Assembly: GCA_001600635.1 (NCBI GenBank)
Contig: BCKL01000023.1
Location: forward strand, 124,001-188,000
Direction: 5' to 3'
DNA length: 64,000 nt
From: Leucosporidium creatinivorum
Lineage: Eukaryota > Basidiomycota > Microbotryomycetes > Leucosporidiales > Leucosporidiaceae
Below the pieces are notes generated by a model. That model worked only from the letters and a program-made list of their open reading frames with translations, searched no databases and was not told where the DNA came from. This document shows, piece by piece, positions 19,884-59,587 of the stretch (positions are counted from its first letter, which is position 1; every line of letters begins with the position of its first letter). A program made the translations under genes and the position numbers.

Positions 19884-20187
19884 TAGATGTGAGAAAAAGA
19901 CAGTCAGAGGAGAATCATATCTGTTTACCGACATGAGGCGGCTGCTGGCTCGTACACTGGCGGAGGCTGGTAGGGAGCAGCGACCAAGCTGAGGGGCCGA
20001 GATCATGAGCGCCGGAGACCTCCGGGCTGCTCTCTGTTCGTTTCATCTCCTCGTCGTCGCGGACAGGATAAAGTGACCTAGTACACCCTCACTAGCTCCG
20101 AACCTTTCTAGGCCAACTTCCTCCTGAACCACCTTCGAGTGACGCCCATCCGACAATCCCGCTGCTTCATCTTCGGCGACAAAGTTC
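19884..20187. other. Convergent intergenic spacer
   Basis: 304 bases between the thioesterase stop and the end of LARYY copy 1. No gene-like or repeat feature was seen. Confidence 0.5.
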
Positions 20188-22600
20188 ATGTGCTGTCCTC
20201 CTCCTCCTCCTCAGTCCCTTGATCAAGGTCGGCCTGCGCAGGATGAAGCATCAGCAATGCTTGCAGAGTACGACCGGTCGGAACACAGAGCTCACCAAAG
20301 CTGCGAAGGCTCCTCCAGTGACGAGTCGGCGAGGCTGCCGAACGGGCTGAAGAGGAGAAGAGTTCAGCAAGAGCAGGCGGGACTCGATGAATGAGTGGAC
20401 GGAGGACTCACTCTTATGCTCGCGGTAGGTAGCAGGTTGTTCCTACGAGTCGGCGTACTCGGCGCAGGGCCCAGCTCAGGCCAATCCGAAGCTCGTCCGA
20501 GAGGCGAGACGGGAGGCGGGCTGCTCTGCAGCTGTGGTAGAGATACAGTGCGAGCTCGTGGTGTAGTTGATCCTTCCTCCTCCTCCACCACTGATGATAC
20601 AGGCTCGAGGCGCCGTAGGCCTCCCAATCCCAATCCCGTCCCGTCAACTTCGGCGCTCGACGACGAGCGAGCCTCGCCAGGCGAGTAGAGTGGGTCCGAG
20701 TTCTCGGCATGGTTTAGCTGCTGAAGTCGGTCGGCCAGCTCTTCCTTGAGCCTGTCGAGCCTGAGCAGAGGGACCAGCGTCTTGGCGAGCGTCGTTCCGC
20801 CGAGTTCGTCCAGCAGCTCGGCACGGCTAACCACGTCGTCCAACATCGTATGAGCGGCGCGATTGCGGTTGTGATGCAGGTCAATGGAGCTGATGGCAGC
20901 GGCGTCAGCTGTATGCAAAGAAGAGATCAGCGCGCATCAAGGAGCAAGAGGTGAAGGCCGACCCGCCCTCGGGGATGCCCAGCTGTCGCGCCGAAAGAAC
21001 TCGCAGGACTCCACTCTTCGTCCCAGCGCCAGTTATGCGTGATCAGATTGATGTGGCCGTCCTTGACTGACAAGTTTGTGCCCGTGGTCTCGAGGCGCCA
21101 GACAGTGAGATAGTAGCGGGCGAGGTCAAACGCGATGATAGGGCCAACGATAGCCAGCGAGGACGCCTGTAGTTGTAGAAGAAGTGTCAGGAATGTACTC
21201 CCGTCTGCTAGCGAAGTCTGAAACGGAGGGGAGATCCCAGCACTCACCTTCAGCCGCGCATGCGCTCGCTCCCTCTGCTCCAACCGAGCCTCGCTCGCCG
21301 TAAGCTTGTGCAAAGCCATCGAAACCTCGCCCTTGGCAAGCGCGAGATCATGCTCCAGCGCTACTGTAGTCCTCCCATTGACCACCTGCGCGGCGAGCTC
21401 GGCCTCGGAGGACCTGATCTGCTCGGTGAGGGGGTCCCTCCTCGTCTTCGAGCGTTGCATAGCGGTCTTCGAGGGCGAGATGGTCCGCTTTGGTTGAGTT
21501 GAGCTCCTCCCAGGCGTCGGTGAGCTGATAACGAAGGCTAGAGAGCTCTTCGACCTGTCGAGAGAGCAACTTGATGTCACTGTCAGTGAGCCGCTGCGAG
21601 CGCTTCGCAAAGCTGGAGAGACAGTGACGGACCGAGGACGTCGGAGGAGCAGCACGGTACTGTTTAAGCTCCTGCTCTAACTGAGTGAGCTGATCCTGTG
21701 TATTGTCAAACGAGCTTTAGTGAGGCCGATGAGCAAGGCAGCTTCACCGAACTTACTCCGCGCATTTGCAGCTCCTCTTCCAAATGCTCCAGCCTCTCCT
21801 CCGAAGCTTCATGATGAAGATGAAACCTCGTCCTGGTATTCACGAGCGTCTCTCTTGCCTCGACCAGCTGCTCCTCAAGGGCTCGACTTCGATCTTGCTC
21901 AACGTCGAGCGCTCCCTCGAACAAGTCGATGTCGTGCTCAGCGGCCTGAAGGTTTTGGTGCTCAATCTCAAGCGCTTTGTTGAGGGCAAGGTTCTCGTGC
22001 TAGTGCAGAAGACTCAAGGTGAGCGATTCTGCTCAACGGAGCGAGTTCGGCGAAGGCTCACCCTCAACCTTCTCGCCCTTCTCCGGTGCTGCGTAGCGAC
22101 TTGGAGCATCCCACGAGCAATGTCCCGCTCAGAGATGATCTGAGCATTCATCCACTCGTATCCACTGCCGGCGACGAGGGCGTCGACTTGAGCCTGCGAG
22201 CGAGCGATAAGTGAGCGCAAGTCACAGCGCCGAGCTCAGCCCAAACTTACCCTGAGCCGAACGATCTCCGTGTCCCTATCTTCGAGCTCATGTCGAGCGT
22301 GTGTGAAGGTCTCTCTAAGCTGCCTGCGGGTGATGGAAGGACCAGCCTTTCGAAGGGGTAAAGAGCGAAGGTCAGCGTCGTGGGTCCTCTGCACCACAGC
22401 CTCAGGGCTGCCACCCGATACGTGAGGAGGGAAATATAGCTACTCACTCTCCCTCGATGCTCGACGCCACTTCCCGAGCTCTCGGAAGTCGAGTAGCCTC
22501 CCTCGAGAGACGATAAGGACGCGGAGCTTGAGGAAGGTCGCCTGGAGTTGGAGATATGCTGTAGAGCGTCAAAAGCAGCCAGGACATTGTCGTCGTCCAT
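20188..22600 (-). CDS. LARYY-family coiled-coil protein, copy 1
   Basis: Undescribed multi-exon family with three copies in this window. The start at 22600 reads MDDDNVLAAFDALQHIS, followed by a Ser-rich stretch (TSESSGSGVEHRGRV). A long coiled coil comes next (EIEHQNLQAAEHDIDLFEGA, then ERLEHLEEELQMRG, then LEHDLALAKGEVSMALHKL). A conserved globular segment containing GPIIAFDLARYYLTVW follows, then HTMLDDVVSRAELLDELGG, a Thr/Pro-rich stretch, and a last exon ending TEEEEEDST. The shared exon order with the other copies supports the model. One apparent extra base near the LEDRYATLEDEEG segment shifts the frame relative to copy 2; it may be a real lesion or an assembly indel. Function unknown. 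Confidence 0.65.
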
Positions 22601-23175
22601 AGGTATGTCGTAGCTAGAGGTGTAGAGGCAACATGCGACGAGTGAGGCGAGAGAAGAGGAACGAGATGGCGAGGCGGAGCCGCCGAAGCGATTCCGAGAG
22701 GGCTTGCTCCGCTGGAGGAGGCGCATTGCATGGCAGGTGGAATCAAGCAGCTGAGTATGTACATCTTGAAACAGTGCTACAGACCTCCGAGTGGCCAGCA
22801 GTGTGCCGCTCGGGCTCGGCGTTCACCTCGGCGCTGGCAGCAAGGCTTCCAGCTCGCTCTGGTCGTTGCTCACACTTGCCAAAGCTCTCACTGATACAGG
22901 TGTCTTGCTTCTCGATCTGTGCCATCACTACTCTCCTACAGCCTCAGAATACGAGCCCGGCGGTGGTTCGGACTTGGCTAAACCGTCGCCCTTCGACCTG
23001 CCGAAAAGGCGAGATTGTGGAAGCGATTTCTCGGTAATGCTCGAGTGCAAATGAGCAGCTGCTGTACTATTTTCACCAAAATGACCCCTTTTCGTCCTCG
23101 ACCTCCGCTTCTCGTCGCTCTTTGGCTCCCTTCTCCCTCTCAACCCTCACCTCGCTTCTCCCAACAACCGACACC

Positions 23176-23754
23176 ATGTTCAAACGCGCCTTTGCGACCA
23201 GCCGATCTGTAGCCCAGCAGGTCTCCACCTCTTCCGCCCCTGCCAGCGCACCTCTGCGCCGCAACAAGGATCCGCTCCTCACTTCGGCGTCCGCTTCCCA
23301 CTACACGCTGCCTTCCGGCGCTCACTTTGTAGTGCGACCACCTCCCTCGACTCTACCGCCTTCGCACCCCGTCCCTTCCTCTTCCCTCTCGTCTTCCACC
23401 CTCCTCAAACCCTCAGCAGCAGCAACAGCAGAGCACCTCCTCCCCGTCTCTCGCTCCGCTTCCGCCGCCTCTTCTTCGCCCAAAACCCACCTTACAGCAG
23501 AAGAGCTCTCCACCTTCTACGCCCTTCGCCAGCAAAACCCTTCCCACTGGACTCGCTCCAAGCTGGCCGCAAAATTCGGGGTGTCGCCCAAGGTCGTTGG
23601 GACGTTGGGATGGGGCGAGGGCAGTGAAGCGAGGAGAGCTGAGCGGGAGAGGAAGGAGAGCATCGAGGCGGCCAAGGAGAAGAGGGAAGGCAGGTGGGGA
23701 TGGAAGAAGAGCATTGCGAGGCAGGAGAGGCGCAGGCGGAGGGAGCTGTGGTAG
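23176..23754 (+). CDS. MRPL20: Mitochondrial large-subunit ribosomal protein mL58 (MRPL20 family)
   Basis: Intronless, 192 residues. The start MFKRAFATSRSVAQQV is a typical mitochondrial presequence rich in Arg and Ser. The family core is HLTAEELSTFYALRQQNPSH then WTRSKLAAKFGVSPKVVGTL, followed by a basic, helical C-terminus (RRAERERKESIEAAKEKREG to RRRRELW). It is a structural component of the mitoribosome large subunit in fungi. The start is the first ATG of the frame with the right targeting sequence. The word CTACTCTCCTACA lies about 240 bases upstream. Confidence 0.88.
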   Translation: MFKRAFATSRSVAQQVSTSSAPASAPLRRNKDPLLTSASASHYTLPSGAHFVVRPPPSTLPPSHPVPSSSLSSSTLLKPSAAATAEHLLPVSRSASAASSSPKTHLTAEELSTFYALRQQNPSHWTRSKLAAKFGVSPKVVGTLGWGEGSEARRAERERKESIEAAKEKREGRWGWKKSIARQERRRRRELW

Positions 23755-24042
23755 ACTACGGAGGGCAAGGAGGAGGCAGCAAGTGCTGTCGGTAATCTGA
23801 AGGCGTATCAAGCTACTCGACGGCTGCTGTAGGAGCCGACTATGGCGGGCGAGGAAGCTGCTCGGCGAAAGAGGACAGACGCCGCGACTGCTCATGGAAG
23901 CTACTTGCGAGGGTGCAAGGGGTCTGCAGGTCTTCTAGGGCCTTCTAGATTTGAGAACCGAGGTGATACAAAGCTACAGCAACATTTCTGCCCTTCTCAT
24001 CCTTCGACCTCTGCGCCGAGCCTCCCTCTCTCCGACCCTCAT

Positions 24043-24557
24043 TCACTTCACCTCGATCTTGTCCATCGGGTCTGCATCTCCCCGCCCACTCGTACCATTG
24101 TACATCAACTCCGGCCCATCCCATCCCTGCTCTCCCTCCCCTCGTCGCCGAACTGCGCTACCCTTCGTCGGATCCTCCCCTCCCGTGGCCGAGCCGAATG
24201 CTGGCGAATAGAGAGGTGGTGAAACGGTGCCGTCGTCAAGATTTGATGGCGATGAGAGAGGTAAGATGGTGTGCGATGCCGAAGGTTTGAGACCGCTCAT
24301 GAAGGGGGACATGCGCTTTTGGATGAGCCGGACGGCGAAGAAGACGGCGATGAGGACTGCACGATCGTAGCGGGTCAGCGTGAGTACAGCCGAAGAACCT
24401 CAAAATGAGTTACAGAGAACGAGGCAACCGAGGATGACTGCAGATGGGACTTATAGGGTCAGCTCAATGCTCGGCGCTCGGTCGGCGATGCTTGGCCGGC
24501 GAATTGCTCACCTCCTGCTGTGACTCCAGTGCTCTGCTTGCTGCTGGTGGCTCCCAT
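24043..24557 (-). CDS. Small single-pass membrane protein, unknown
   Basis: Three exons starting at 24557: MGATSSKQSTGVTAG, then VPSAVILGCLVLFLIAVFFA (hydrophobic), then VRLIQKRMSPFMSGLKPSAS and a polar tail ending PMDKIEVK. Both introns have CTGAC branch sites. The product of about 130 residues has a short extracellular or luminal N-terminus, one transmembrane helix around residues 17-40, a basic stop-transfer sequence and a Ser/Gly/Pro-rich cytosolic tail. I recognise no family. It faces away from LARYY copy 2. Confidence 0.6.
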
Positions 24558-24857
24558 ACTTCTCAAAGGACGAAGGAAGAAGGCAAGAGAGCAAAAGACA
24601 CAACACAGACGCTCCCCCGACTTGCGGACAACGGCCAAAGGAGACGAGCGCCGAGCCCCTCCTTGCCCGGCCTCCGGTCGCTCCTTAGGCGCCTGCAGCT
24701 GAGCAGACGGAGGTTTTCACAGCTGCCGACTGTGGATACACCTTTCGGTGGAGAGCTAGCCCGCTGAAGTACTTCAAGTTCGACTTCGCCCTTTGCCCTC
24801 CTACTCTCACCTCAGTCGTCGCATCTCGTCTATTTCACATCGGCCAACGCATTAAAC

Positions 24858-27214
24858 ATGGTCAACGACAGCATGGCAACCGCTCTTGATGCTCTGCAGT
24901 ATGTCTCTGGAGCACAGGCCGCGAGTTGCGGGTCCGCGTCGTCTTCCAATGACTTCCAATGAGGGCTGGGAGAGCGAGGGAAGTGATCTGGAGCACCGAG
25001 TGAGAGTGAGTCGATACATCTCTCGCCTCTTGCTCTAGTTGTGCCCCAGGCGGATCATGCAGAGTACCCACTGAGCTGACCTTCTCTCCTCGACAGAACG
25101 GCGCCAACATCACTCGAGGCGAGCTCAGGCAGACGCTGGAGCATTGCAGACGAGGCTTCGAAGACAGGGATACGGAGATCGTACAGCTAAGGGTACGCCT
25201 CGCTTTGAACTCTTGTGCTGAGAGTGCTCGCTCACGGTTCGGTTTCTGCACTCAGGCTCAAGTCGATGCTCTCGCTGGAGGCAGCGGCTACGAATGAATG
25301 ATCGCTCAACTCCGGACCGAACGTGAGACCTCTCGTCGGATGGTCCAGGTGGCTACGCAGTACAAGCGAGCGGCTAGGAGGGCGACTGTAAGCCTCCCCG
25401 AGTTTCCTCCTCGATAGCCCAGCTGACCCCTTCTGTCCCTTAGCTCGACGTCTTCCGTATCGAAGAGCGCTGCGAAGCTGCCTACGAAGCTCTCGCCGGC
25501 GCCGAGGACGACCTCGACTGGTTCGAGGAGGAGCTCGTCTTGGAGAGAAGCCGAACTGCTTCGCTTGAGGAGGAGCTCGAGCAGGAGAGGCAGGCAAGGC
25601 AGGTTCTGGAGCGCAGGATTACGAACGTTCATGTTCATTATCAGCGCATATTTGCGGAGAACCAAGCGTTGGAGGAGGAGTTTCGCATGGCGGGAGTAAG
25701 TTCGGTTCGCCGGTCTGCTCGGTGACAAGCCCGCTTACACTCGCTCTCTCTTGCAGGATCAACTCGACCACCAAGAGCAAGAGCTCGCGCGCTACCGAGC
25801 AGCTCCTCCTTCTCTCACGGTGCGTTCCTCCCCCCGCTTTGCCGTCTGCTCGGCGACCGCTCGCTAATCGACTTCGCTCTCACTGCAGGCGGACGAGGCA
25901 TCTGGTCTTCGCTCCCAGCTCTCGGATACGAGGACAGAGCTCGCCGCAACCAAGTCGGACTACCTCAAGCTCGAGGATCAGCACGCTGCTCTCGAGGACG
26001 AGAAGGCCGCTCTGGCCGAGCAGATCAAGTCCGCCGAGACAGAGCTCGCTGCGCAGAAGATTCAGGGCAAGACGTTGGTGGCGCTCAGGAATGATCTCGC
26101 TCTGGCCACGGGCAAGATGTCGATGATTTCGCACAAATTGGGGACGAGCGAGACTTGTTTGCGCGAGAAGGAGGAGGCATATGAGAAGCTCAGGGTATGT
26201 TGTCTTCAGCTCTTGAGCTCCAGCAACGAGACTCAAAGTCTCAAGCGCGCTTGCTGATCTCTTCCTTTCTCGGCAGGCCTCTTCGCTCCAGCTGCTGGGC
26301 CCCATCATCAGCTTCGACCTCGCTCGCTACTACTTTACCACATGGGACCTTGAGCGCACGGACGAAGCGCCGCAGATACAGCAAGGAGGGATCAACTCGG
26401 GGAGGTACAACTGGTGCTGGCGAGTGGAGCATGAATTGGAGTGGCTCTCGGCGAAGGAATTGGGGATCCCGCCAGGCGAGTCGCGCCTTCCCTCTCGTAA
26501 GCGTTCGAGCTTTCAGACTGACTTTCTGTCTCTCCAATAGCCGACGCTGCAGCTCTTAACTCCCCCAATTTACACTACAACCGCAATCTCGCTGCCCATA
26601 CTACCCTCGACGACGTCGTCTCTCGCGCCAAGCTGCTCGACGAGCTGGGAGGAACAACACTCGCCAAGACGCTCATACCTCTCTTGAAGCTCGACAAGCT
26701 AAGGCAAGCGTTAGCCGAGGAGATTGAAGCGCAGAACAGCGCGACGCGACCGCTCGTCCTGCCCAGCGTCGGCAACGAGGCGGGTGCCCAAGATGGAAGT
26801 TTGGCGGCGGAGGGGGAAGATGGATCGACTACACCTCGAGCTTGTACGCGACCCTTACCTCCGCAACAACGACAAGGCGAGGCGTTTCCCGCTCTGTCGA
26901 ACGGCTCGAGTTGGCCTGAGCTTGCCCGAGCGCCGAACCGCCCTTTTGCTAGGGAGGATGGCAAGTTACGGCGCCCGAAGATTACTGTACGTCACTTTCA
27001 GCTCCTCTGTGCCCCCCAAGCCCTCTTTACTTACCCTCCTCTTCTCCAATAGCCGGCTCGCCAAACCCCTCGACCTCGGCTCTCGAGCGGTGGAGCTTTC
27101 GCTGCTCTGGTACGGGCTTCTTACTCCGAGCTCGGCCGAGAGGTATACAGCTGATCCTATCTCACTTCACAGGCCGACACGAATCAGAGTGGTGAGGAGG
27201 AGGAGAGCTCGTGA
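24858..27214 (+). pseudogene. LARYY-family coiled-coil gene, copy 2, disabled
   Basis: The same exon series as copy 1 is on the opposite strand. MVNDSMATALDALQYVS starts at 24858, and the gene ends at the TGA at 27212-27214 after TNQSGEEEESS. The coiled coil reads LAATKSDYLKLEDQHAALED and ALAEQIKSAETELAAQ; the conserved block is GPIISFDLARYYFTTWDLER; then HTTLDDVVSRAKLLDELGG. Two disabling differences are visible. A perfect 10-bp tandem duplication (24943-24962) shifts the frame and makes an in-frame TGA in exon 1. In exon 3 the Trp codon of GYEWM in copy 1 is a TGA here (GYE-stop-MIAQ). The remaining exons keep open frames and good splice sites, so the loss looks recent. Use of a downstream start is possible but would remove the conserved N-terminus. 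Confidence 0.75.
24943..24962. repeat. 10-bp perfect tandem duplication in LARYY copy 2
   Basis: The unit CTTCCAATGA occurs twice in direct succession. Removing one unit restores a reading (SSNEGWESEGSDLEHRVR) that matches the Ser/Glu-rich exon-1 end of copies 1 and 3. Confidence 0.9.
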
Positions 27215-27924
27215 AGCTCGGCGCTCGGGTGGAGAGGGAAGGGGAGGGGAGGCTCGAGCATGGCGCGTAGAAAGTTGGGGACAGGAGATGGATAGACCGA
27301 GTGTAGCTGTGTAGATGACTTGTCACGACAGTATCCTATTATTCGCCGAGCTCTCGAGGCGCAACCTTTGCTTCCCCTCTTCCTTGCCCCGCGCCGAAGG
27401 CTGCTTCTCGCTCGCTCGCCAAGAATTCCCTACAGAACTCTCGTGTTGGGCTGACCGCGAGTCGAGTGCAGCCGACATATAGCTTCATAGCCTATCAAGT
27501 TTGAGAGTCACTGGAGGGGGCTCACCACGGTACAGCGAGCTTCGGCGATGAGCCTCGCCGCCATGCTTTTGTTCTGCAGAAGAAGGCTTCAAACCGAATA
27601 ATGAAAGGCTTACAACCCCGGATTTGTTGGTTGATGCCAGGTGGTCGAAACCGGCCCAGAGGGGAAGTTGAAGCGAGCATTCCAGCGCGATCACCGATTC
27701 GGCGCCCAAGTCGCGAGGGTCGTTGGAGACTTGGCCGCCTCGTTCTCTTCCTCTCGCTACTAACTCTACTCGACTACATCTTGCTTTTTACGCCCGGCGC
27801 GCTGGTCTTGTAACCCTCTCCCGACAACCTCGAGTCTCCTACAGCTCAACACCCACACGCGACCAACACAGCGGTCACCCTCCCCTCCTCCTCACTCAAC
27901 TTCTCTCTCCCTTCAAGCTACACG
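27215..27924. promoter_or_regulatory. Intergenic region upstream of secreted protein 1
   Basis: 710 bases with no supported gene. A CTCCTACAG word sits about 90 bases before the ATG at 27925, preceded by pyrimidine-rich sequence, which suggests the promoter/5' leader of the secreted protein gene. Confidence 0.4.
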
Positions 27925-29654
27925 ATGGTCTTCATCCAAGCAGCTCTCTCCCTTGGAGCCTTTGCTGGTCTCGCTTCGGCTGGTGGCATCGTTCACATGG
28001 CTTCGGCCATCCAGCCTGTCATTGTGAGTTTGCAGACGAGCTGAGCCGAGCCGTTGGAGCGGGAAGAGAGCTTTTGCAGCACTGCAGCGAGACCGCTCGC
28101 CGAGGTCGCAGAGGGGTAGAGCTGACCATTCAACGCGCTTCTGTAGGACTCTGCTTCCACCCTCGAGGGCTCGGGCAACTACATCCTCGAGAACCAGGCG
28201 ACTGGACAAGTCCTCTCCTTCTCGCGCGAGGGCGGAACGACCAACTTCTACCCCGGTGGATCCAGTGAACCCATCGAGATTCAGGTGAGTCTTGATGTCC
28301 TACAGCAGCTGCTGGCGCCTTTCGAGCGACACAAACTCGACGCGACGGTGTTTGGGCGGCGCCCTTCTCGGCCTTCTCGTCGAGGCGCCAGGCGCGACTT
28401 TGAGATCGTGTTTTCTCTCTCGCTTGCAGAGGCTGACCTGTAACAATACACAACAGTTCGAGGGCAACGCTGCTCGTCTCTCTGGAGGCAACAACAAATG
28501 CGCTTCGGCCCAATGGAGCTACGACGTCGAGGGTGGTGTCGACCATGCTGCCGTTTCGTACGCTTGCGCTGTTGGAAGTGGACAGTCGGGAACCGCTTCG
28601 CTTGAGAAGACCAAGCAGTGGTGAGTCTTGCGTTGCTGTACCGAGGAAACGCGTCAAACGGGCGTGGCAAGGGGAGGAAGGCCGGATCGCCGAGATGGTT
28701 GACGCGACGTGATGGAGAGCTGTAGAGGTGTTGGGAGCCTAAGAAGAGTCGGAGCTGACCTTTCGATACTCAATAAAGGTGGTACTTCATCCCCGCCGAT
28801 GGATCCTCGTCGGACGACAACTCGCGCAACGACGACAACCAGGGTGACGACAACTCCTCCGCTTCCACCACCGAGGCTCCCGCTCCCTCGACCACCGAGG
28901 CTCCCGCCCCTTCCCCTACCGACGCTGCTCCCTCTTCCTCGGACGAGGCCGCTCCCAGCCCCGCCTCGGGCCGTGCTGCTCGTGTCCTCCTCTCCTCCGA
29001 GTCGACCTCCTCCTCCTCCGACTCGAGCTCCAACTCGGGCCTCCTCACCAAGCCCAAGGGATACTACGAGACCGAGTCCTCGACCATCTCTCTCGACCAG
29101 GTCGACAAGTCCTCGGTCGTCAAGGGTGACCGCAAGACCTGGATCTGCCGCCACCCCGGATGGTGGCTCAACAAGTGAGCTAGCTGCCCTCTGCGCTCTC
29201 CGCTTCGCTATGCTGACTCGACCGCTTGATGATGAACAGCCACCCCGCCTACGTGACCGCCGCTGGACACGTCGAGTGCGCCTCCGACCTCAAGGCCTAC
29301 CGCGCCGCCAACAAGCGCACCAAGCGCTCGCACCACGACCTCGCCAAGACCCTCAGCAAGCGTGGTGGACAGCAGTTCTACATCCTTACCCAGGACCACA
29401 TCTACGTGAGTTGCTGGCGCGGGCGATGAGAAGTTGGCGAGAAGCGAAACTGACCCGAGTGTTGGTTGAACAGGACATGGCCACCCGCGCTATGGCTGGA
29501 TCGGCTCTCTCGACCTACGGAGGATACACCTCGACTACTCTCAGCCTCTGGGACAAGGTGAGCTTCGCTTCTTGACCTCGTTCTTGGTCCGGCGCTGACC
29601 CTCCTCCTCCCAAAGTCCGACAACTCCCAGATCTGGACCGTCAACTCGGCCTAA
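27925..29654 (+). CDS. Secreted beta-trefoil (ricin-B-like) protein 1
   Basis: Seven exons (27925-28023, 28147-28284, 28457-28620, 28779-29174, 29240-29405, 29474-29557, 29616-29654) encode 361 residues. A signal peptide is clear: MVFIQAALSLGAFAGLASAG. The first half has a lectin-like N-x-x-T-G-x-x-L repeat (YILENQATGQVLSFSREGG), then a Ser/Thr/Ala/Pro-rich linker likely to be O-glycosylated. The second half has KTWICRHPGWWL, HPAYVTAAGHVECASDL and a closing GGYTSTTLSLWDKSDNSQIW, whose Q-x-W fits a ricin-type trefoil repeat. It is a paralogue of the genes at 30779 and 57949. Carbohydrate binding is inferred from the fold pattern only. It is expected to be extracellular or in the cell wall. Confidence 0.8.
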
Positions 29655-30778
29655 TCGCCTCTCCCTCTGTTCCTCTCTTCACGATCCCTCCCACGACTCG
29701 CCCACGACCTTCACCTCAAGCTTTCGCCTTTCGACTCCCCCCTCGTTCGGCTAACCATCCCGCCTCTTCCCTCCCTCCCCTCCGCCAAAGTCGCCAGCGC
29801 GCGTTTGACACGCTGCGCCACCCCCTCCCCTCCCAGCTCTCCTTCGCCTCGACTCGAATACCCCCCTTTACTTTCGCCCCCTCCCCCTGCCGCCTTGTTC
29901 ATTCCCTCCCACACTTTTCAGACGCTTGCTTGATGGTCAAGCTGTAGTAGGATTCTCTTGCCCCAGGGGCAGAGGTCGCTGTAGTCTTGCTTAGAGTAGA
30001 GTTTAACTTATCGATTCCCCTTCACCCGACGCCGAACTGAGGAGAGCGAGAGCTGGGCCACTGGCAAAAGAGTGAGTGAGAGATGAGAAGCAAGAGGTGA
30101 GAGCCGCGAGGGTGGAGGGGATCATCAAGTTGGTGCAGACCGAGCAAGCGGAGAGGCAGTGCCCTCCCATCGAGAAGACCGAGAAGAAGGGACTCCCTCG
30201 CGACTCGGCACGAGGTGCGCTTGAGCCTCCTCTTCCATTGCCGAGCTTTGTTGACCAGACAGGCTTAATGCAGCGTAGACCTCTCCGTCTGTAGCTCTAT
30301 GATGCTGCAGGTCATCTGAGCGTACGAAAGCGACGAGCTCGGCGCTCGTTTCGGACGCGCCGAAAACGGTGTATCTCGAAACAGGGAGCTCAGTTTCGCT
30401 TTTGTTCGGTTTGAGGTATATTCGGCCACGACAGAGGAGCTGCTCGCATGTAGAGCGGAGCAACGGCTGCACCGAAGCAGGCAGCAAGGGAGGCTCGGCG
30501 ATGGGCTCAGCGGGCAAGAGGAGGAAAGCTGCACAACGTGTAGAAAGGTCGATCGCAAGGATTGAAGAGAAAATAAAGACTAGGCGAGAGGTCCGTGCTT
30601 CCTGCTCTCAAATCGCGAAGTCGAAGACGACCCTTGTCCTCCTCCCACACACTACTTACGACTCTCCCCCTCAGCAGGTACTGAGCGCAGTCGTCCTCGT
30701 CGTTGACCTACAGCAGCAGCACACTTCCTCGCACTCCTTCCATCGTCCACACGACACACACAACCTACAAATCTCGAA
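29655..30778. other. Intergenic region between the tandem secreted-protein genes
   Basis: 1.12 kb with no supported gene. The first 250 bases are extremely C/T-rich (3' region of secreted protein 1). The last 120 bases, containing CA-rich runs, precede the ATG at 30779 and should be its 5' leader. Confidence 0.5.
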
Positions 30779-32404
30779 ATGATCGCCCCCTTCTCTCTCC
30801 TCGCCCTCGTCGCCGGCGCCAACGCCGGAGGTATCTTCGACAATCACTCGATGCGCGGGAAGGTCATTGTGAGTGCCGAGCAGCTTCTTCCTGGTGGAAA
30901 CTGCCTACAGCTTTGTTGGACGACACAACGGACGGCTGAAAGACGCTAGCCAAGAGACGCGACCCGAGCGAGCGGTGCGCGACAGGGATGGAGATTCCTT
31001 GGATGTAGCTCGGCGAGCAGGGAGGGATACCTACAGATGTACAGAACAGACTCGGAGCATTCGCTGACCCCCGCTTCTCACAGGACGCCGCAGTGACCTT
31101 CGACGGCAATTACACGGTCAAGAACGTCAAAACGGGCGGATACCTCAACTTCAATCGCCCTGGAGACACCACTAACGTCCACACAACCGATGACTATGCC
31201 ACAATCGAGCTCGCGCACGGCAGCGCAAAGGGCCAGTCGGGCGTCAACTTTGGCCAGTACTCGGGCACCATTATCACTGGGATGGGCAAGTGTGGATCTG
31301 CTCAGTGAGTGGCTGCTTCCTCTCCGCTCGCCTATATCTTCCTCGACTCGCCTACATCTTCCTCCACGGGGTTGAGCCGGCGGGAGCAACGAGACGGCGG
31401 GAACGACATCTCGGCGATCCTGTCTCAGGCTCGGTCGGCGCAGAGACAGCAGCTTACCTACCTTTTGTGCAGATGGGGAGAAGAGGGAGGACTCGGCGTA
31501 GATGTCGCCTTCGTCTCGTACGCCTGCAAGGGTGAGTTACAGCCTCTGCCCTCACGTTCGGAGTCGCCGAGCAAATCTCGGCGCCCCTTTGAACGCCGGC
31601 TGACATCGCGCCTCTCCCACAGTCGGAGATGATCCCACGGGAACCGACACTCTCGAAGTCGCCAAGCAATTCTGGAGGAGTGAGTCTTGTACAGTCTTGG
31701 TATCGCCGAAGAACGGAGCTGACCGTCTCCGCTCACAGTCGTCCCCTGCGGCTCGGGCGGTGGAGGAGACGACGGCTCGAACGTCAAGTTCAACGCCAAG
31801 GCCGCTGCCAAGGGTGACTCTGCCGACAAGGCCGATTGGTCGTCGAACGCCAGCCCCACGGCCGCTCCCGTCGCCACCGCCGCTTCGAACGACGATTCGT
31901 GGTCTCCTCAGACCACTCAGAGCGTCAACGGCTACGACCAGACCACTTGGGTCTGCCGTCACCCTGGGTGCGTCTCTACACACTTCACTGAAGCGCCTCG
32001 CTGACCTCCCCTCGCCGAAACAGATGGTGGCTCGCTCGTCACCCCGACTACATCACCGACGCTGGCCATGTCGAGTGCAAGGACGACCTCGAGGCCTACA
32101 AGGCGTCGCTCAAGAAGCGTTCTACTCACGCTCAGATGGCCAAGCGCGTTCGCAACAAGCGCGCCGGATCGTCAGGTCGCTACTGCATGTCCGTCGCCGT
32201 CGCCGTCGCCGCCCTTCTCCCCTCTTTCGGAGCTGATTGCTGACTTGATACATCTACAGCGTTGCCGAAGATCATTTGAGTGACATGTCTTCAAGGGCCC
32301 TCGGTAGTGAAGTTGTACAGAGCTTCGGAGGCTACACTTCGCAAGGTCTCGTCGACTACGACCCCGAGGACGAGGGCCAGCAGTGGGACATCTCCTCCGT
32401 CTAA
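30779..32404 (+). CDS. Secreted beta-trefoil (ricin-B-like) protein 2
   Basis: Seven exons (30779-30868, 31084-31304, 31473-31531, 31623-31679, 31739-31967, 32024-32188, 32260-32404) encode 321 residues. The signal peptide is MIAPFSLLALVAGANAG. YTVKNVKTGGYLNFNRPGD is a trefoil-like repeat. After KCGSAQ-W and VSYACKVGDDPTGTDTLEV comes a short Gly/Asp/Ser linker. The most conserved block follows: TTWVCRHPGWWLARHPDYI, then AGHVECKDDLEAYKASLKKR. The C-terminal repeat ends in QQWDI. Intron phases match the paralogues at 27925 and 57949, so duplication preserved gene structure. The donor of the sixth intron (GTCCGT) is slightly atypical. Extracellular; ligand unknown. Confidence 0.82.
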
Positions 32405-32898
32405 GCTCGCATCATCCACTAGTCTTCGTCTTTCGCACTCGCATGTTCATTCCCTTCCCCTTTGATACCACACTATGAGCAGCTCGGTGGACTGGTTCCG
32501 CCGAGCTTGCTAGCCCTCGCCCCTCCCCTCTTCGCTCCCTCCTCACCTTCATGTCGTTACGTTGGCTTCCCAATTCGATTTTGCGTTCAAATAACGTAGT
32601 GTAGAGCTCCGCGAACGGTACAAGCGGGCGAGAGTATGAGAGCAAGATAGGACAAGCTCGGCGAACGGAAGGAGGGCAGCCCCAACGCCGAAGGCTCGAG
32701 CTCTAGGGGAGCGGGTCCTCCGACGACAACAAGACGGATAAAGCTGAGAGTCATCTGTGCAGTGCTTGGAAGCTCCAGCATTCTCAGAAAACCCGTCGAG
32801 CAGGCGCGGCGCCGAAGGCCGAAGCGCGAGCACTTTTGCTCGCTGTCACTTCTGCTGCTTGCTCTTTCCTTCTTTCAATCGCCTCAGCTCGAGACAAC
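32405..32898. other. Intergenic region upstream of the DUF4188 gene
   Basis: 494 bases with no supported gene; promoter and 5' leader of the gene at 32899. Confidence 0.5.
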
Positions 32899-34117
32899 AT
32901 GTCAACCACCCCTTCGCACCCCCACTGCCTCCCCCGCGCCACCAAGCCCGCGCTTCACTACAACTCTCCCGCAGGCCGAGCTTCCTCCGCGCGCTGGTTC
33001 CTCCTCAATAGCATCCCTCTCACTTCCATCATCGGCACGGGCGCTCTCCTCCAGTACGGCTACACCCTCGCACTCGCCTACATCCCTAACCTCCCCATTA
33101 GCGCTAAACTCGGCGTTTGGTGCGCTCTCCCCCTCGCCATGATCTTCGGACCTTTCGTCAAGCCCACTCTTCAGTCGTTTGGACTCCTTAGAAACCCCTG
33201 GATGGACGACGTCATCCCCGGCAAGACTTACCCCCATCTGCCTGGAGGGACCGTCGACGAGCAAGGAGTGAGGCAGAGCCCGGAGTTTGCTGTGCTGCTT
33301 ATCGGTGCTCGCTGCAATGCTCCTTTCGGGGCTTTTAGTGGCAAGAAGTTTGCTGAGATCGGCAAGGGGTTCTCTCAAGTGAGTTTAACGACGTTCCAAG
33401 AGACTCGGCGATAAGCTGACGAGCTTCGGCTTTCGCCCTGCAGCTTTGGAGAGATTTCGAGGCTGATCCAAACTCGGGACTGCTCAAGTCAGTAGCGCTC
33501 CCCAGCTTCTTGCGCTATGGGGCCCTCCCACGAAGCAGCCATCACTGACCCCTTCCCTCTTCCCTCCTCCAAACTTCGGCGCTCGCCTCTCCGTTCTCCT
33601 TTCTTCCACTCTCGCCCAACAGCGCCGAAGCCTTCATCTCCACCTCTCGCCCTCGCAACAACAACCTCATGACCATGGGAATCTTCCGCTCCACCGCCGA
33701 CGTCCATGCCGCCGCTCGAGGACCGCTTCATCGCCAGATGATGAAGCTGTACAGGGATATGAGCGAGGAGGAGGCCAGGACTTACGAGGTTTGGCATGAA
33801 CTCTACACGGTGCGCGTCTTTTGCTCTTCCCACTCCCTCTTTCTCCGCCTTCTGACCTTCGTCTGCCTATCTTCCTTTCGGCGCAGATCAAAGCGGGCGG
33901 ATCCGAAGGCGTCTACCTCAACTCAGCTCCGCACGGTCTCGGCGGGATCTTTACGCCCGATGGAGGAGAGTCCACCGAGCCGGGAGAGGAAGAGTCGGCG
34001 AGCTCGGACGATGGAAAGACGAGCGCCGAGGAGAGAGCGATAATGTGGCAGTCGGTGCTTAGGGTTGCGAGGGGAAGGAACGGCACCAGCAGGGGTAGGA
34101 TGGGGATGAAGGAGTAG
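32899..34117 (+). CDS. DUF4188/AF470-like monooxygenase-family protein
   Basis: Four exons (32899-33378, 33444-33487, 33623-33809, 33887-34117) encode 313 residues. The N-terminal 110 residues contain two hydrophobic segments (IPLTSIIGTGALLQYGYTLA and WCALPLAMIFGPFVKPTL), so it is probably membrane-anchored. The DUF4188 domain follows: SPEFAVLLIGARCNAPFGAF, LWRDFEADPNSGLLN, NNNLMTMGIFRSTADVHAAA, then GPLHRQMMKLY and WHELYTIKAGGSEGVYLNSA. Family members have a dimeric alpha-beta-barrel-type fold and are annotated as haem-free monooxygenase-like, sometimes within secondary-metabolite clusters. No cluster is evident here. The substrate is unknown. The C-terminus is Ser/Glu-rich. Confidence 0.8.
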
Positions 34118-34375
34118 ATGTTTCGTCTGAGCCTTCCGCCTATCACTTTGCAATTCGTGCTGTTCTTGACGAGTGTGGACTTTCGAGCGCCGAGCGGTTC
34201 GCATTCTCCAGCTCTCTTGCGCTCTGCAACACTCTTTCCTCCGACTCGAGAGTCTCCCAGCTAAACAGTGATTTTTCACTCGTCTACATCCGACCCTCTA
34301 CCCCCCATAAGAAGTAGCAACAAACGGCCCTCGCCCTCTTTCTTCCGCCGCTCCTTCGCCGAGCCTCACTCGCTC

Positions 34376-37300
34376 TCACTCACCCCCCCACTCACTCTCG
34401 TCAGTCTCGTCATCCGAGACAGCCTAGAAGGTCGACAACAGTTCAGTGAACGCTCCAAGGATCAACGCGCATCACGAGGAACGTACAAGGACGGCAAAAG
34501 GGTTGCCCAAGCCAGTGCCGTTGCTCGGTCGAGCGGGCTGACGGCGAAGATGAGGGTCAATGATAGCTTCATGGAAGTGGCAAGCGTGATAGAGGAACTC
34601 ACTCGGTGCGCCTCACTCGGAAAAGGTCTCGCAGCTCGAGAGGGCGAGCTCGGAGCAAGTCTCGGCCAGCTCGTCTCCCTCAGCAGAGGCGAGGAAGGAG
34701 TTGGACTGCCCTGGAGCTCTGGGAGAGCCACTGTACGCGCTCTTGGAGTAGCCGAGCCCTCCTGTTCCTCCACCACAGCTACAGGCGAGGGCACACCGCC
34801 TCTTCTCCCTCCCAATCCCAGCGCCGTCCCTCCTGCCCGCCCCTCCTCATCAGGCAGCACAAGGGCATCCGATTCATCCTCCTGCACATCATCCAGCTCT
34901 TCTATCCGCTCAGCCAGCGCTCTCTTGAGCTTGTCGAGCTCCAGTAGAGGTAAGAACGTTGCCGAGAGGGTCGTCCCGCCGAGTTCTGCCTCCTTCTCGG
35001 CGAAAGTTGCGAGATGTAGCCAGAACCGTCGGCCGGGGCCGTTCCATTTCGATGATGCCTAACTAGAGAGCTACGATAAAAAATTACACGGATGGCCAGT
35101 GAAACCTGCCCCTGCAGGGAAACTGTCCGCTCCGTGGTCAACGAGGATAGCCGAGATGGAAAGGGGAAGGTGCGAATAGAAACGACAGGGAAGGTGGGTG
35201 GGATGTCAAAACGCAGCGTCTGAGAGAGCAGAGCGCTGTTAGCTATCGTCCCCGATCCCCAGCGACGATGAGGGCGCTCGGCTGACCTGAGAGAGCAGAG
35301 CGCTAGACTGAGACGTTGATCTGCTAAGAGCGAGAGCGCGGTGGGCGAGCGTCTGCAGTCGAAGGGAAACGTCTGAGTTAGGATGTAATCTACTCGAGCG
35401 GATCGAGAAAGAGCGTACGAAGTATTTGCGCGGTGAGGGACGAGCGCACTTCGTAGCGAGCAGCAGCCGAGATCTCGAATCCTGCGAGCGGGAGAGAAAG
35501 GGCACCTCTATCAGCGCGAGCTCGTACGGAACGAGAGCTACACGGCGACTCACCTAGTCCTGTAGGCGAAGGGCGTGCTGCAGAGAACCGAGCAAGTTGT
35601 GCGAGGAGACAAAGAGTCGGCGGAGCTGAAAAGGCGAACCGGGGACGAGACCGATCATCAGCTCCTCGAACATCCACTGAACCAGACTCATGCACGAGAC
35701 TCACAGAGCAAGCAGCTCCCGTCAGGGCAAGAGGGTACAGCGATGTCGGCGCCAGAGCCTGGGCTATTAGAGCGACAAAGGGAGGTTAGCCCTCGGCGGA
35801 AAGGGAAGGTGTCTCGACGACGAGACCTCGTCGCGGAGACGAGCTGCTCGAGACGGGTCTCGAGAGCGAATGAGACTGGCTCACTTTAGAAGACCGGCAA
35901 AACTCCAGCGGCTTGCTCCCTCGTTCCTCCTACTCCACCGAAGACGATCGTCAAGCAGCTTGATGCGGTCGACGAGATTCTCGAGAGAGACATGGGCAGC
36001 GGGGTGCGCGAGTGGTGTAGATTGATGGAGTTGATGACAGCAGCATCAGCTTTGTGTGCGAGATCGAGTCAGCGCGGCAAGGATCGGGGAGCGGAGAGTC
36101 GACTCACTCTCGGGGATGGCGAGGTTTCTTGCTAATAAGCGCCACAGGTCGTATTGCTTGTACCAGTGCCAATTGTGACCCGATAGCTTGATGTTGCCTT
36201 TGTCGAGCTCAAGGAGCCGCGTGCCATGGTGCTTGAGGCTGCAGGCGACAAAGTAGTAGCGAGCGAGGTCGAATGCGATGAGTGGGCCGAGGATGGCGAG
36301 ACAAGACAGCTGAATGTGGATGAGGAAGGTCAGCGCGGTACAGCTGGCTGTCAGAGTAGCTGGAGAAGACCGGTAGAAGGGAGGGCTTGCCTTGAGCTGC
36401 TCGTGTGCTTGCCCCTGAGACTCAGCCGAGCCTCAGTGGCAGACAGCTTGTGCAGCGCCATGGAGGTCTCGGCCTTGACGAGTGCAAGATCATGCTTGTT
36501 CGCTGCTGAGCTCTTGCCTTCAGCTTCCTGCGCACGAAGCTCGACCTCGAACGACTTGATCTGCTCGGCGAGGGCCGCCTTCTCGACCTCGAGTTCTGAG
36601 TGTCGAGCCTCAAGCATCATGAACTGTCTGTTGGTGGAGTTGAGCTCTCTTCTTGCTCTGTAGAGCTGAGAGTGTAGCTCGTGGACTTCCTCAGCCTGCA
36701 AGAAGAGCCAGTCGAATTAGCAAGAGCTCCGAGCGCTGGTTCAAGCAGAGATGGACTGACCGAGAGGAAAGGGGGAGCTCCACGATATGGCTCTAGCTCC
36801 TGTTCGAGATGGTTGATGTGATCCTGTGTAGGCAGGAAGGGTCAGTAAAGATGGGGACGGCGAAAGCCAGCGCGCCGAGCGTACAGCCATGCTCCCGAGC
36901 TCCTCCACCAGGCTCTCCTGCTCTTGCAGACGCCTATCATACTGAAGATGGAACTCCTCCCTTGTGTCCACAAGCCGGTCTCTTGACTCCCTCAACTTCT
37001 GCTCGAGGGATTCCGTTCGGTCTTGCTCGAGGCTGAGTGCTGCTTCGGCCCACTCGCGATCGTCATTAGCCTTCTGGCGCTCTTCCCGCTCCGCATTCAG
37101 ATCTTCGCGGAGTCGGAAAAGGTCGAGCTATGTCGGAACATCATTCAGCACATACTCGGCGAAGGGCTGCTCGGCGAAGACTCACCGCCGCCCTCCTGGC
37201 TTTGCTCTTGTATCTGACTACATGTCGGGCCATGTCAAGCGCCCTCTCCTGTTCGACCTTCACTTGATCATGCATCCACTCGACTCCAGTGCCGGCGAGA

Positions 37301-37717
37301 AGGGCGGCGTTTTGAGCCTGCGATGAGTGAGATTGGTTAGCGAATCGTTGGCAAGCAGTCTAGTCGAGGTGAGCGGTACCTCAAGTCGGGAAATCTGGAT
37401 TCTGGAATCGTTGAGCTCATGGAGCAGCTGTCTAACTTGCCCTTGAGTGAGTGAAGGGCGACTCTGGGGAACGGGGAGTCGGCGAGGGTCAGCGCCGTGA
37501 GTCCTTGGCTTCTCGTCTTCGGGGCTGTTCCTGACGGTAAGGAGAGAGAGATGTAGCGACTTACTCTTCCTCCTTGCTCGACGCCACTTCCCGAGCTCTC
37601 TGAAGTCGAGGAGCCTTCATCTCGAGCCGAGCAGGACGCGGAGCTTGAGGACGGTAGTGTAGAGGCACAATCGTATTGTAGCGTCTCGATAGCGGCGACG
37701 AGATGCTCGTCGACCAT
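34376..37717 (-). pseudogene. LARYY-family gene, copy 3, interrupted
   Basis: The 5' part (37717 down to about 35955) reads MVDEHLVAAIETLQYD, TSESSGSGVEQGGRV, a coiled coil (AALAEQIKSFEVELRAQEAE) and GPLIAFDLARYYFVACSLKH. The 3' part (about 34995 to 34376) reads ELGGTTLSATFLPLLELDKL, then a Pro-rich stretch, PARPSNGTGLGNPFAVL and a final exon DDETDESEWGGE with a conserved intron. Between them lies about 0.96 kb of unrelated sequence, breaking the copy inside the LLDELGG motif. In addition a one-base loss near INLHHSRTP shifts the frame just before the insertion. It could be two partial copies rather than one interrupted copy, but the pieces abut at the same motif. Confidence 0.7.
34995..35955 (-). 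other. Insert of about 0.96 kb with exon-like segments inside LARYY copy 3
   Basis: Non-homologous to copies 1 and 2. On the minus strand it contains segments flanked by plausible donors, acceptors and CTGAC words: LALTGAACS, LRRLFVSSHNLLGSLQHALR, FEISAAARYEVRSSLTAQIL and LRFDIPPTFPVVSIRTFPFP. The frames do not join cleanly, and a TAG closes the second segment. It may be a fragment of another host gene captured at this site. No terminal repeats or target-site duplication were recognised. Confidence 0.4.
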
Positions 37718-38192: not shown

Positions 38193-41100
38193 TCACTCCT
38201 TGCCCTGCTCGACACGAATATCCTGATGGATAAACTCGTGCAGCTTCCTCCCCGGCTCGACTCCAATCAACTCCTGCACCTCGCCCAACTCCAACGAGCA
38301 CAACCCTTCCACATTCTCCACCTTGCCCATCACATAGCGATAATTCTTGGTCGAAATTCCCGGCAGACTCCTCAGGATCTCCTGACTCGCAGCACTGAAG
38401 CCCGCCTCCCCCGTCCCCTCGGCGGCGACTCCTCCGCTCTCCTCGTCCGCTCCTACGAGCAAGGCCTTGTCGGCATCGGGCTCCGAGCGGTTCTCTTTGA
38501 GCTCGCGGATGATGTCGACGGTTTGGTAGGGGGAGGAGGACCAGATGATGCGAAGGCGAGGGAAGGAGATGGTGAGGAGGACGAGTTTGGAACGGATGTC
38601 GGTCTCGGAGGTGCTGTCGCCTTTGGTGCGGATTTCGGCGTAGGTCTGTTGGCGGAGGAAGTGGTGTCAGCGAGTCAAGCGAGCAAGAAGACGAAGAGCG
38701 ACGACGTACCTCGAGCGTGAACGACTTCTTCTCGTCAAACTCGATGAGGAGGATGGGCTGCTGGTAGTGAGCCGTCATGATCTCGCACTGCTGGTAGCTG
38801 TGATCGGGTAGTCGGCGGTCAGCTTGTCTCTTCATCCCCTCGACCTCGACCTCGACCTCGACCTCGCGAACTTACAGACGACCCGAGTTGAAACTCGAGA
38901 TCAAATCGCTGATACTCTTGCGCTCGACGCACATCTCGGGAGTGATGATGTAGTCGCCGATGCTGATGGTGAGAGGGACGACGTCGAATCCGCCGCCGTG
39001 AAGGAGGGAAGGGAGGGAGGAGCGGAACTCGCGGACGTCGACGATGACCTGGAGTCAAGCGAGTGAGGTGAGCAGGCGCTAGAGGACGAAGGGAAGAGAG
39101 TGAGGGCCCACCTTGGGCGGAGCAGTCTCGACGACTCGTCCTCCGGCCTTGCGACTGCTAACAGCGCGAAGCGCTGCCGGCTCCTCCTCTCCCGGTCGAT
39201 ACTCAGCCTCATGAGGGATGGCCATGGTCTGCGTGTCAGGCAAAGAAGGAGATCAGCAGTGGTCCTCGCAAGCCAGCGAGCCGAGAGAGTGAAGAAAGCT
39301 CACCCCCTTCTCGCGAATGAGCTTCTCGAACGCATCCTTCTCCTTGCGAATGCTGCTGAGGTACCGCTGCTCCTCGACCGAGTCCTTATAGGTGAGGAAG
39401 TAGACCCTGATAGCGAGATTGGCGTGCGCGGCTCGGTAGGTCTGTTCGTCGTCGGTCGGTTCGTAGGTCAGCGCCCGCCTCGTCGCCGAGCTCGACTCGC
39501 TCTCGCCTCGCGCCAACTCACCTCCAACCTCCTCACAAACGCCGGATTCGGATCATACATGACGACAAACTTGGGCCGAATCTCCTCCAAGATACGATCG
39601 TCGTCGTCGTCGGCGTAAGGGCGGATGATGACGAGGTCCTCGTTGGAGACGATGCCGAAGTAGTTGTTGAAGTCGAGTTCCGAGAAGATGTCGTTGGCGA
39701 GGGGGGCGTCGGGGACCATGTAGGAGGGAGCGGAGGCGTCAGAGGTGGTCGCGTCCATGCTGTTGGAGGGAGGTAAGCGAGAGGAGGGAGGTAAGCGAGA
39801 GGAGGGAGGTCAGCTCGGCGAGGTCAACGTTGCGAGCGGCGAGGGACAGGGAGAGGGAAGGAACGGCGGAAGAAAGACGTACATATCCGCGACCTGACCA
39901 CTCTCTTCCTCCAAAGCCGTGGCACTAGCACCCGTCGCCTTGAGCGTCGCCTGCGCCGAGACATTTAGATTCCCCCCGCCCCTCACCCTCCTCCTCTTCC
40001 CACTCGGCGCCTGACCCCTCTGCCACTCGGCCTTCCTCTTCAACGCCGCGCTCTCCTGCCCTCCTCCTGAGCCTCCTCCTCCTCCTCCTCCACCGCCCGA
40101 CTTCCCTCCCCCTCCTCCTCCTCCCCCACCCTTCTTCAAACTCCTCTGCATCTTCCCCATCGCGGCCTTCCAATAGAAATAGCTGCGCAGCTTCTCCCGC
40201 ATCATGGCTTGACCGCCTTCGGCGTCGGTTTTGGACGAGAGGTACTCGCCGAGGGTGGCGCAGGTGTCGGAGGAATCGCACATGGGGGGGGGGGTGTCGT
40301 TGGAGAAGGGGGGGGGGGTGAGCGAGCGGAGGGGGGGGGGAGGAGAGGCGAGAGGGGGGGGGGNNNNNNNNNNNNNNNNNNNNNNNNNNNNNNNNNNNNN
40401 NNNNNNNNNNNNNNNNNNNNNNNNNNNNNNNNNNNNNNNNNNNNNNNNNNNNNNNNNNNNNNNNNNNNNNNNNNNNNGGGGGGGAGAGAGGAGAGGGAGG
40501 GTCAGCGCCGAGCTCCAAGTCAAGTCGAGTCGAGTCGCGTCGAGGGAGAGAGGGAGAGAGAGAGAAAACGCACAAGGATCCACATCCCCCCAATGCAACT
40601 CATTCTCAATCTCATCCAACACATCCGCCAACAGCAACCACTTAGGCTGCTCCTCCAACACGGCCTCAACACCAGGCGGGGTCCATCCGTTCCTCCAACT
40701 GGGCTTCTCCTGCTCGGGCTTCTTCTTCTTCGGCGCCGGTGCTGGTGGAGGAGCAGGCTTGGGGTTGGAAGTGGAAGGCCCAGCGACGGGCATAGCTCCC
40801 CTCGACTGAGCGAGCGCAGCCTGCCGACTTTCCTCCTCCGCTTCCATCATCCTGAGCATCTCCTCCTCCTCCTCATTCGGTCCTCCATCGTCCCCCATGC
40901 CCCACTCATCCTCTCCCAAATCCCCCGGGATCTCCTCTCCCTCGAGACTAACCGTCCCCTCCCGTCCCGCCGAAGAGGAGGAGGGGGGGACGGCCTTTTT
41001 GATGTAAACTCGGCTTTTGGCGACGGTGAAGAGAGTTTCGGCGGCGGGGGTGAAGAGCCAGGGGGATTGATCTTTTTTGTCGCCTTGACTGGAGAGGAGC

Positions 41101-57948: not shown

Positions 57949-59587
57949 ATGCGCTCCTCGCTCCGCTTCACCTCACTCGCCCTCTCACTCGCCGCCCTCT
58001 GCTCCTCAGGCTCGGCAGCAGCCAACGGTCAACTCGCGCGTCGCGGAGGTATCGTCGACATGGCTGCGACGGCGGTAGAGATCTTGGTGAGCTCAGTTTC
58101 ATCTGGAACGCAGGAAGAAAGTGGAGCTTGGGCGACGAAGGGAAGGTGGGAAGGAGAGCTGACCGAGTCTCCTTCCCTGCGAGCTATCAGGCCGCTGCCG
58201 TCCCCCACAGCGGCGAGTACTACGTTCAAAACGTTGCCACCGGAGAGTACCTCCACTTTGAGCGACCTGGCTCCACTACCAACATCGTGACGGGCTCGGC
58301 GAAGACGAGCATTACGCTCGGCCAAGATTCGGCGACGGGCTACAGCGGAACGAACTATGGGACATATAGTGGGACGTACTTCACCGGTCTCTCGAAGTGT
58401 ATGAGTGCTCAGGTGCGTGTGTCGTTGCTCGAGTCGCCTTGATTTCAGTTCAAAAGCTGACTCAGCCTTTCCCGACAACTCGCAGTGAGTTGAGCTTAGG
58501 CGGGCTACCTCATCCGAGAAGAAGAACGATGCTCATTGTTGTATATCGCAGGTATGGCTCCGAGGATGGAGCAGGCGTCGATATAGCCGGCGTGAGGTGA
58601 GTCGTGCTGAGCCGACGCCGAGAGCCATTGCCGAGGCTGATCCTCGCTTGCCACGCTCCCCCCATACATCCTCCTCTCTCGCGCTATCGAACGTCGACCA
58701 AACTCTCGCACAGTTATGCCTGCGTGGTCGGAAGCGATGCAACCGGCACGGCTACGCTCGAGGTCGCCAAGGTGAGCTTTTTGAAGCGCCCCTTCGGCGG
58801 GCAAGTTGAGAGCTGATCGCGTCCACTCTGCAGCAATTCTGGGCGCTCGTCAAGGCTGACGGCTCGAGTTACTCGAGCACCGGTACATCCGCCTCAGCAG
58901 TCGTACTCGCCGCTGCCGCCTCAAGCGAGACTTCTTCGTCCTCGTCCTCCGCCGAGCCCGCGGCAAACAGCATCACCTCGTCCACTGCTGCCGCTTCCAC
59001 TTCCACCGACTCCGCATGGTCTCCCTCTAATACACAGAGCGTCAATCCTAACGATCAGACTACCTGGGTTTGCCAGCACCCGGGGTGAGCCTCTCTTTCG
59101 GCGTTTCACGCTACCTCGGCGAAGGCGAAACCCCGCTTGTTTTACCTCAGAGCCAGCTAATTGACCCTATCTTCTCCACACGCCTTATATCCACACTAAC
59201 TAGATGGTGGCTCGCTTGTCACCCCGACTACATCACCAACGCCGGTCACGTCGAATGCAAGGACGACCTCGAGGCCTACAAGGCATCGCTCAAGAAGCGT
59301 TCGACTCACGCTCAGATGGCCAAACGTGTCCGTACCAAGCGTACTGACGACGGCATCTACTCCATGTAAGCCTCGCCGCGCTCGACTGGGAGCTGCCTCA
59401 TCGCCGAGTGACTGATCGCTGAGCTCCCTCCCCCTTCTGCAGCATCGCCGTCGACCACGCTACGGACATGGCTACACGCGCTGTCGGTTCATCCATCATC
59501 ACTACTTCGGGCGGCTACCTGTCAGTGGCACTCGTCGACTACGACTCGACCGACACGAACCAGCACTGGAGGATCACCTCGGCGTAA
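57949..59587 (+). CDS. Secreted beta-trefoil (ricin-B-like) protein 3
   Basis: Signal peptide MRSSLRFTSLALSLAALCSS, followed by YYVQNVATGEYLHFERPGST (trefoil-like repeat), KCMSAQ, GVSYACVVGSDATGTATLEV, a Ser/Ala/Thr linker, then TTWVCQHPGWWLACHPDYIT and AGHVECKDDLEAYKASLKKR, and a C-terminal repeat GGYLSVALVDYDSTDTNQHW. The HPDYIT...KKRSTHAQMAKRVR block is nearly identical to secreted protein 2, also at DNA level, although the genes are 25 kb apart. At the second intron, the donor after SAQ sits one base away from the paralogues' position (CAG before GTGCGT), so the frame into YGSEDGAGVDIAG does not close. This is either one extra base in the sequence or a defective copy. Confidence 0.75.

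Follow-up and report, generated by a model that had tools for sequence, protein, structure and literature searches.

Local gene families that are small, uncharacterised and partly made up of pseudogenes form a general class, and the locus analysed here resembles them in having paralogues, three in 17.5 kb, that have diverged, and members that are damaged, but differs in that all three are damaged while the exon structure is still kept in all. Two described protein families also bear on the comparison. The coiled-coil region of Apg6/Beclin (PF17675) matches the coil of one copy weakly, and HEPN domains are described as carrying a motif of the R-N-x3-H type, Rx4-6H with a polar residue after the arginine (PMC3710099). 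The window, that is the whole stretch of 64,000 nucleotides under analysis, corresponds to positions 124001-188000 of contig C23 in an assembly of 27.7 Mb and 63 contigs, and contains three homologous multi-exon genes, referred to below as LARYY copies 1, 2 and 3 (Table 1). From our comparisons, these paralogues of ten exons each are probably an old local cluster in which constraint was lost late, with copies 1 and 3 as pseudogenes and copy 2 as either a pseudogene or an N-terminally shortened gene.

Table 1. Positions in the window of the three LARYY copies, of selected exons and lesions, and of the sites of a second gene family
Feature	Position	Strand	Remarks
Copy 1	20186..22600	-	Exons (5' to 3') 22600-22448, 22346-22251, 22193-22062, 21999-21757, 21695-21633, 21554-21248, 21166-20967, 20908-20412, 20346-20296, 20233-20186; chain of homologous exons; all introns GT-AG apart from intron 7, with GC start
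Copy 2	24858..27214	+	Exons 24858-25005, 25097-25192, 25256-25387, 25444-25695, 25757-25819, 25889-26194, 26277-26475, 26541-26986, 27053-27109, 27173-27214; intron 7 with GC start
Copy 3	34376..37717	-	Exons (5' to 3') 37717-37565, 37463-37380, 37317-37186, 37127-36885, 36823-36761, 36695-36391, 36309-36108, 36049-34603 (interrupted), 34537-34487, 34423-34376; intron 6 with GC start
Exon 9	20296-20346 (copy 1), 27053-27109 (copy 2), 34487-34537 (copy 3)	+ (copy 2)	AG on the 5' side and GT on the 3' side in 3/3 copies; length a multiple of three
Exon 7 of copy 2, GPIISFDLARYY block	26277..26475	+	
Exon 8 of copy 2, LHYNRNLAAH block, helical stretch and Ser/Pro-rich tail	26541..26986	+	
Copy 1, frame change in coiled-coil exon 6	21425..21445	-	+1 relative to the other two copies; conserved protein on either side in different frames
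Copy 1, second frame change, exon 7 after NWRWDEE	20995..21015	-	+1; conserved LSARQLGIPE resumes in the other frame
Copy 2, frame change in exon 1	24945..24965	+	Exon of 148 nt vs 153 in the other two; leads to TGA at 24960-24962
Copy 2, in-frame TGA in exon 3	25295..25297	+	Trp in copies 1 and 3; ATG directly after
Copy 3, frame change at end of exon 6	36405..36425	-	-1
Copy 3, frame change in exon 8 within RNxAAH block	35995..36010	-	-1
Copy 3, insertion in exon 8	34987..35947	-	~0.95 kb; ends uncertain by ~10 bases
Second family, site 1	28174-28278		E 0.065
Second family, site 2	31102-31266		Query
Second family, site 3	58212-58373		E 7.4e-11

The homology of the three genes is evident at both the DNA and the protein level. 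A DNA search with copy 1 recovered both of the others, copy 3 with E 1.2e-29 and copy 2 with E 7.0e-20, far above chance, and the protein of exons 7-8 of copy 2 matched copies 1 and 3 at E values from 8.8e-24 to 9.8e-6; in an alignment with X at the breaks, copy 1 is 52% and copy 3 is 42% identical to copy 2. When all frames were read and cut at the conserved splice sites, exon order and intron positions were found to be common to all three copies. These coordinates and splice cuts agree with an earlier note on this DNA, which had described three local copies of the same layout, and the GP[IL]I[AS]FDLARYY block and acidic last exon that it had pointed out are present in the alignment of the copies. 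The same note had given the genes nine exons, whereas there are ten, the tenth (exon 9, 51-57 nt) being hidden in all three copies inside an apparent long intron 8 of 178-186 nt. Intron 7 is in phase 1 and all the others are in phase 0. Three introns start with GC, at 20966, 26476 and 36390 (intron 7 of copies 1 and 2 and intron 6 of copy 3, respectively), and the GC start of intron 7 in both copies 1 and 2 is possibly ancestral. Intron lengths and ends are kept; intron identity (0.57-0.77) is little above that of shuffled sequence (0.57-0.64), and the 200-base flanks show likeness at the level of shuffles, with a possible exception upstream of copies 2 and 3 (0.69 vs 0.62).

The ten-exon models give a protein of ~580-590 residues with a Ser-rich N-terminus, in which no signal peptide was seen by eye. 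Exons 3-6 encode a charged stretch nearly without proline (2, 2 and 3 Pro in 250, 245 and 246 residues of copies 2, 1 and 3, respectively). The ~3.5-residue hydrophobic periodicity of this stretch was reached by 23 of 1000 shuffles for copy 2, 38 for copy 3 and 140 for copy 1, in which it is not significant. The long coiled coil proposed earlier, in exons 3-6, may thus be regarded as only moderately supported. Models of exon 7 (mean pLDDT 61) and exon 8 (mean pLDDT 64) are weak and show helix over part or most of their length. As the plainest guess for a role, we suggest a coil-joined scaffold or adaptor: the intact protein would have worked inside the cell as an oligomer, in which the ~250 residues of exons 3-6 would pair as a coil. 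The conserved region of exons 7-8, with LARYY and RNxAAH, would form a head that is mostly helical, and the tail, Ser/Pro-rich and acidic, would presumably be disordered.

Exon 8 of copies 1 and 2 contains R-N-x3-H, i.e. Rx4H with asparagine after the arginine, which is the pattern given for HEPN domains (PMC3710099), and in copy 3 a frame change crosses the motif. On this basis the RNxAAH region might be a HEPN-type RNase domain joined to a coiled coil, an arrangement seen in conflict or self-recognition genes. However, the motif is at chance level, an arginine followed by N/D/H/S/T, then 3-5 residues, then a histidine being present in 43%, 83% and 71% of shuffled copies 2, 1 and 3, respectively. 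There is also no profile match of HEPN type to the LARYY copies: a Pfam search with four exon 7-8 pieces at E <= 10 returned no family, and the DUF4145 profile had no match over the assembly at E <= 10. Finally, in a low-confidence model of exon 8 only (mean pLDDT 64), the motif lies inside one long helix and not at a helix end. A HEPN domain in the LARYY copies seems to us barely plausible.

As far as the Pfam, NCBIfam, PHROGs and PDB libraries go, the family stands as uncharacterised, in line with the earlier remark that no known family has this layout, and none of the four sources gave a convincing match. Pfam scans of exon pieces and of the three aligned copies returned weak coil matches only. 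The best of these, APG6_N (PF17675) against the coil of copy 2, scored 20.7 bits (E 5.9e-4), and 18.1 bits in a second scan, against a curated cut-off of 45, whereas copies 1 and 3 of the aligned set reached no E-value better than 0.019. With one copy of three matching, below the 45-bit cut-off, and no other Beclin domain matched in the scans, the similarity to Apg6/Beclin is, on these scores, a coil-on-coil resemblance. For the exon 7-8 block, NCBIfam (E <= 10) and PHROGs (E <= 1) gave no matches; among PDB sequences, a one-copy query gave six chance-level matches (E 0.18 or worse) and a three-copy profile none. Two peptide patterns returned 106 pattern matches in GTDB (prokaryote) contigs and 113 in IMG/VR (viral) contigs, with no confirmed relative in either, and Rfam had no match over 18000-40000 at gathering scores. 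The family may, as the earlier note proposed, be lineage-specific. Literature searches were likewise negative by title among the matches listed, with no fungal gene for the string LARYY and no such family by word search. The stretch DLARYY...INLIT bears what we take to be a resemblance to neuropeptide Y, which was dismissed because the spacing differs and no such family appears in the Pfam and PDB search results.

DNA and protein searches of the 27.7-Mb assembly with different parts of the genes found no fourth LARYY copy, such counts being lower bounds. The only other matches in these searches were weak, one on contig C2 (E 0.05) and one on contig C39 (E 0.14), and the former was set aside, since the place reads like an RNA-dependent RNA polymerase gene (by reading the frames). 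The crtI-family profile TIGR02734 gave 5 short matches in the assembly, confined to its first 40 positions and all below the cut-off.

As assembled, the three copies carry five frame changes, one in-frame TGA and one insertion in ~5.3 kb of coding sequence, spread so that each copy has a break, as the earlier note had it. For copies 1 and 3 the damage is heavier than was described there. Copy 1, credited with one extra base, changes frame twice, in exon 6 and in exon 7. The two disabling changes of copy 2 were recovered as the frame change in exon 1 and the TGA in exon 3. For copy 3, the insertion was confirmed, but the single frame shift proved to be two (exons 6 and 8). In-frame stops outside the frame changes and the insertion number 0, 1 and 0 in copies 1, 2 and 3, respectively. 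Programmed frameshifting was ruled out by breaks that lie at differing places and go in both directions, and repeat-induced point mutation by the ratio of five frame changes and an insertion to one nonsense change. Inspection by eye showed no clear target-site duplication at the copy 3 insertion. Within it, 89 bases (35079-35167) belong to a dispersed repeat with at least 17 other places in the assembly, 89-94% identical, and in three of these places that were compared the mutual similarity extends over 277-306 bases. We take this repeat for part of a dispersed mobile element, probably retrotransposon-derived.

The age of the copies and the timing of their decay were assessed from codon alignments of exons 1-8 and 10, leaving out exon 9 and the codons at breaks. 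The NG86 method gave dN 0.416, dS 1.267 and dN/dS 0.33 for copies 1-2 (546 codons), dN 0.422, dS 1.112 and dN/dS 0.38 for copies 1-3 (557 codons), and dN 0.520, dS 1.391 and dN/dS 0.37 for copies 2-3 (538 codons); the corresponding YN00 values of dN/dS were 0.28, 0.41 and 0.31, obtained with run-time warnings. The copies are thus old and were long under purifying selection, ages being rough because a dS of 1.1-1.4 is near saturation. This does not agree with the rapid turnover that had been suggested for the family, and neither do the dN/dS of 0.33-0.38 and the failure to find further copies in the assembly. In units of dS, the terminal branches measure ~0.49 (copy 1), ~0.77 (copy 2) and ~0.62 (copy 3). 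Simulated drift without constraint left each copy with 2.6-2.9 in-frame stops at 0.05 substitutions per site and with ~5 at 0.1, compared with which the stops found are few for branches of such length; therefore constraint was lost late and the damage is late. By this comparison, most of each terminal branch was passed under constraint, and the history of the three paralogues would be one of purifying selection for the most part, followed by a late loss of constraint. At 22365-22538 and 37482-37655, exon 1 of copies 1 and 3 is closer than the rest of these genes, with third-position differences at 19/51 vs 265/506 (Fisher p 0.04, one test), and the DNA match of the two (78%) extends into intron 1; this likeness perhaps reflects gene conversion.

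Copy 2 may have escaped this fate in part. When its exons are joined across the introns, the remainder of exon 3 through exon 10 is a single open frame of 484 codons that keeps the LARYY and RNxAAH blocks, and copy 2 could be a live, shortened gene started at the ATG directly after the exon 3 TGA, with copies 1 and 3 as its dead sisters. That ATG, however, has T at -3, which is a poor start context, intron 7 of this copy starts with GC, and its terminal branch is the longest of the three; we regard a live copy 2 as unlikely. A further possibility is that the LARYY and RNxAAH blocks form an undescribed, mostly helical domain on a coiled-coil stalk, in a cluster of three genes that were all released from constraint at a late stage, which would fit a self-recognition or conflict set that had become useless in this lineage; we consider this highly improbable. 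To return to the old cluster that probably lost constraint late: if relatives are present in other fungi, the alignment and ten-exon models could seed a protein family not yet listed, and the cluster would be a neat example of long-separated paralogues in joint decay. No known principle is overturned, and the locus is moderately unusual but not surprising.

The damage may also be questioned at its source, since the frame breaks could be mostly sequencing or assembly errors in genes that are intact. Of the four single-base changes in the copies, three adjoin runs of four or five equal bases, there are few stops by substitution, and a Cu-ATPase gene in the same window (51.4-55.7 kb, with HMA and Hydrolase domains) has one frame switch of its own without an intron explanation. 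In that gene, the other frame switches that were joined have introns, but the switch at 52434-52479, in the linker between two HMA-like stretches, has no plausible intron; sequence error, damage or an odd intron would each account for it. Because of this nearby switch, part of the LARYY breaks could be sequence error, and any single break might be one, especially with short homopolymers beside three of the four single-base changes. As an accuracy control, chaperonin (PF00118; 39 matches, 14.1 kb) and HSP70 (PF00012; 30 matches, 11.1 kb) were matched over the whole assembly, 25.2 kb in all, a control that detects breaks only between neighbouring matches. There, 38 of the 51 junctions between neighbouring matches switch frame, and 36 of these 38 imply at least 56 intervening bases, as introns would give; of the remaining two, one implies 28 bases and the other spans 212 model positions and is uninformative. 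Because the control shows almost no switch without an intron-sized gap, five frame changes per ~5.3 kb are well above what is seen in the control genes. Moreover, the copy 3 insertion, the copy 2 TGA and the five-base length difference in exon 1 are not homopolymer errors, and the sole N run in the window (40364-40477) lies outside the copies. Intact genes obscured mostly by errors are thus, in our estimation, distinctly unlikely.

Other features of the window lie beside the cluster. The N run is upstream of an ERCC4-like end that scored below the cut-off (16.6 vs 24 bits). A second gene family was detected with a 55-residue query from a gene near 31.1 kb, whose three matches, its own site included, all fall in the window (Table 1). 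Its members at 28.2 and 31.1 kb sit between LARYY copies 2 and 3 and have, by eye, a secretion-like N-terminus.
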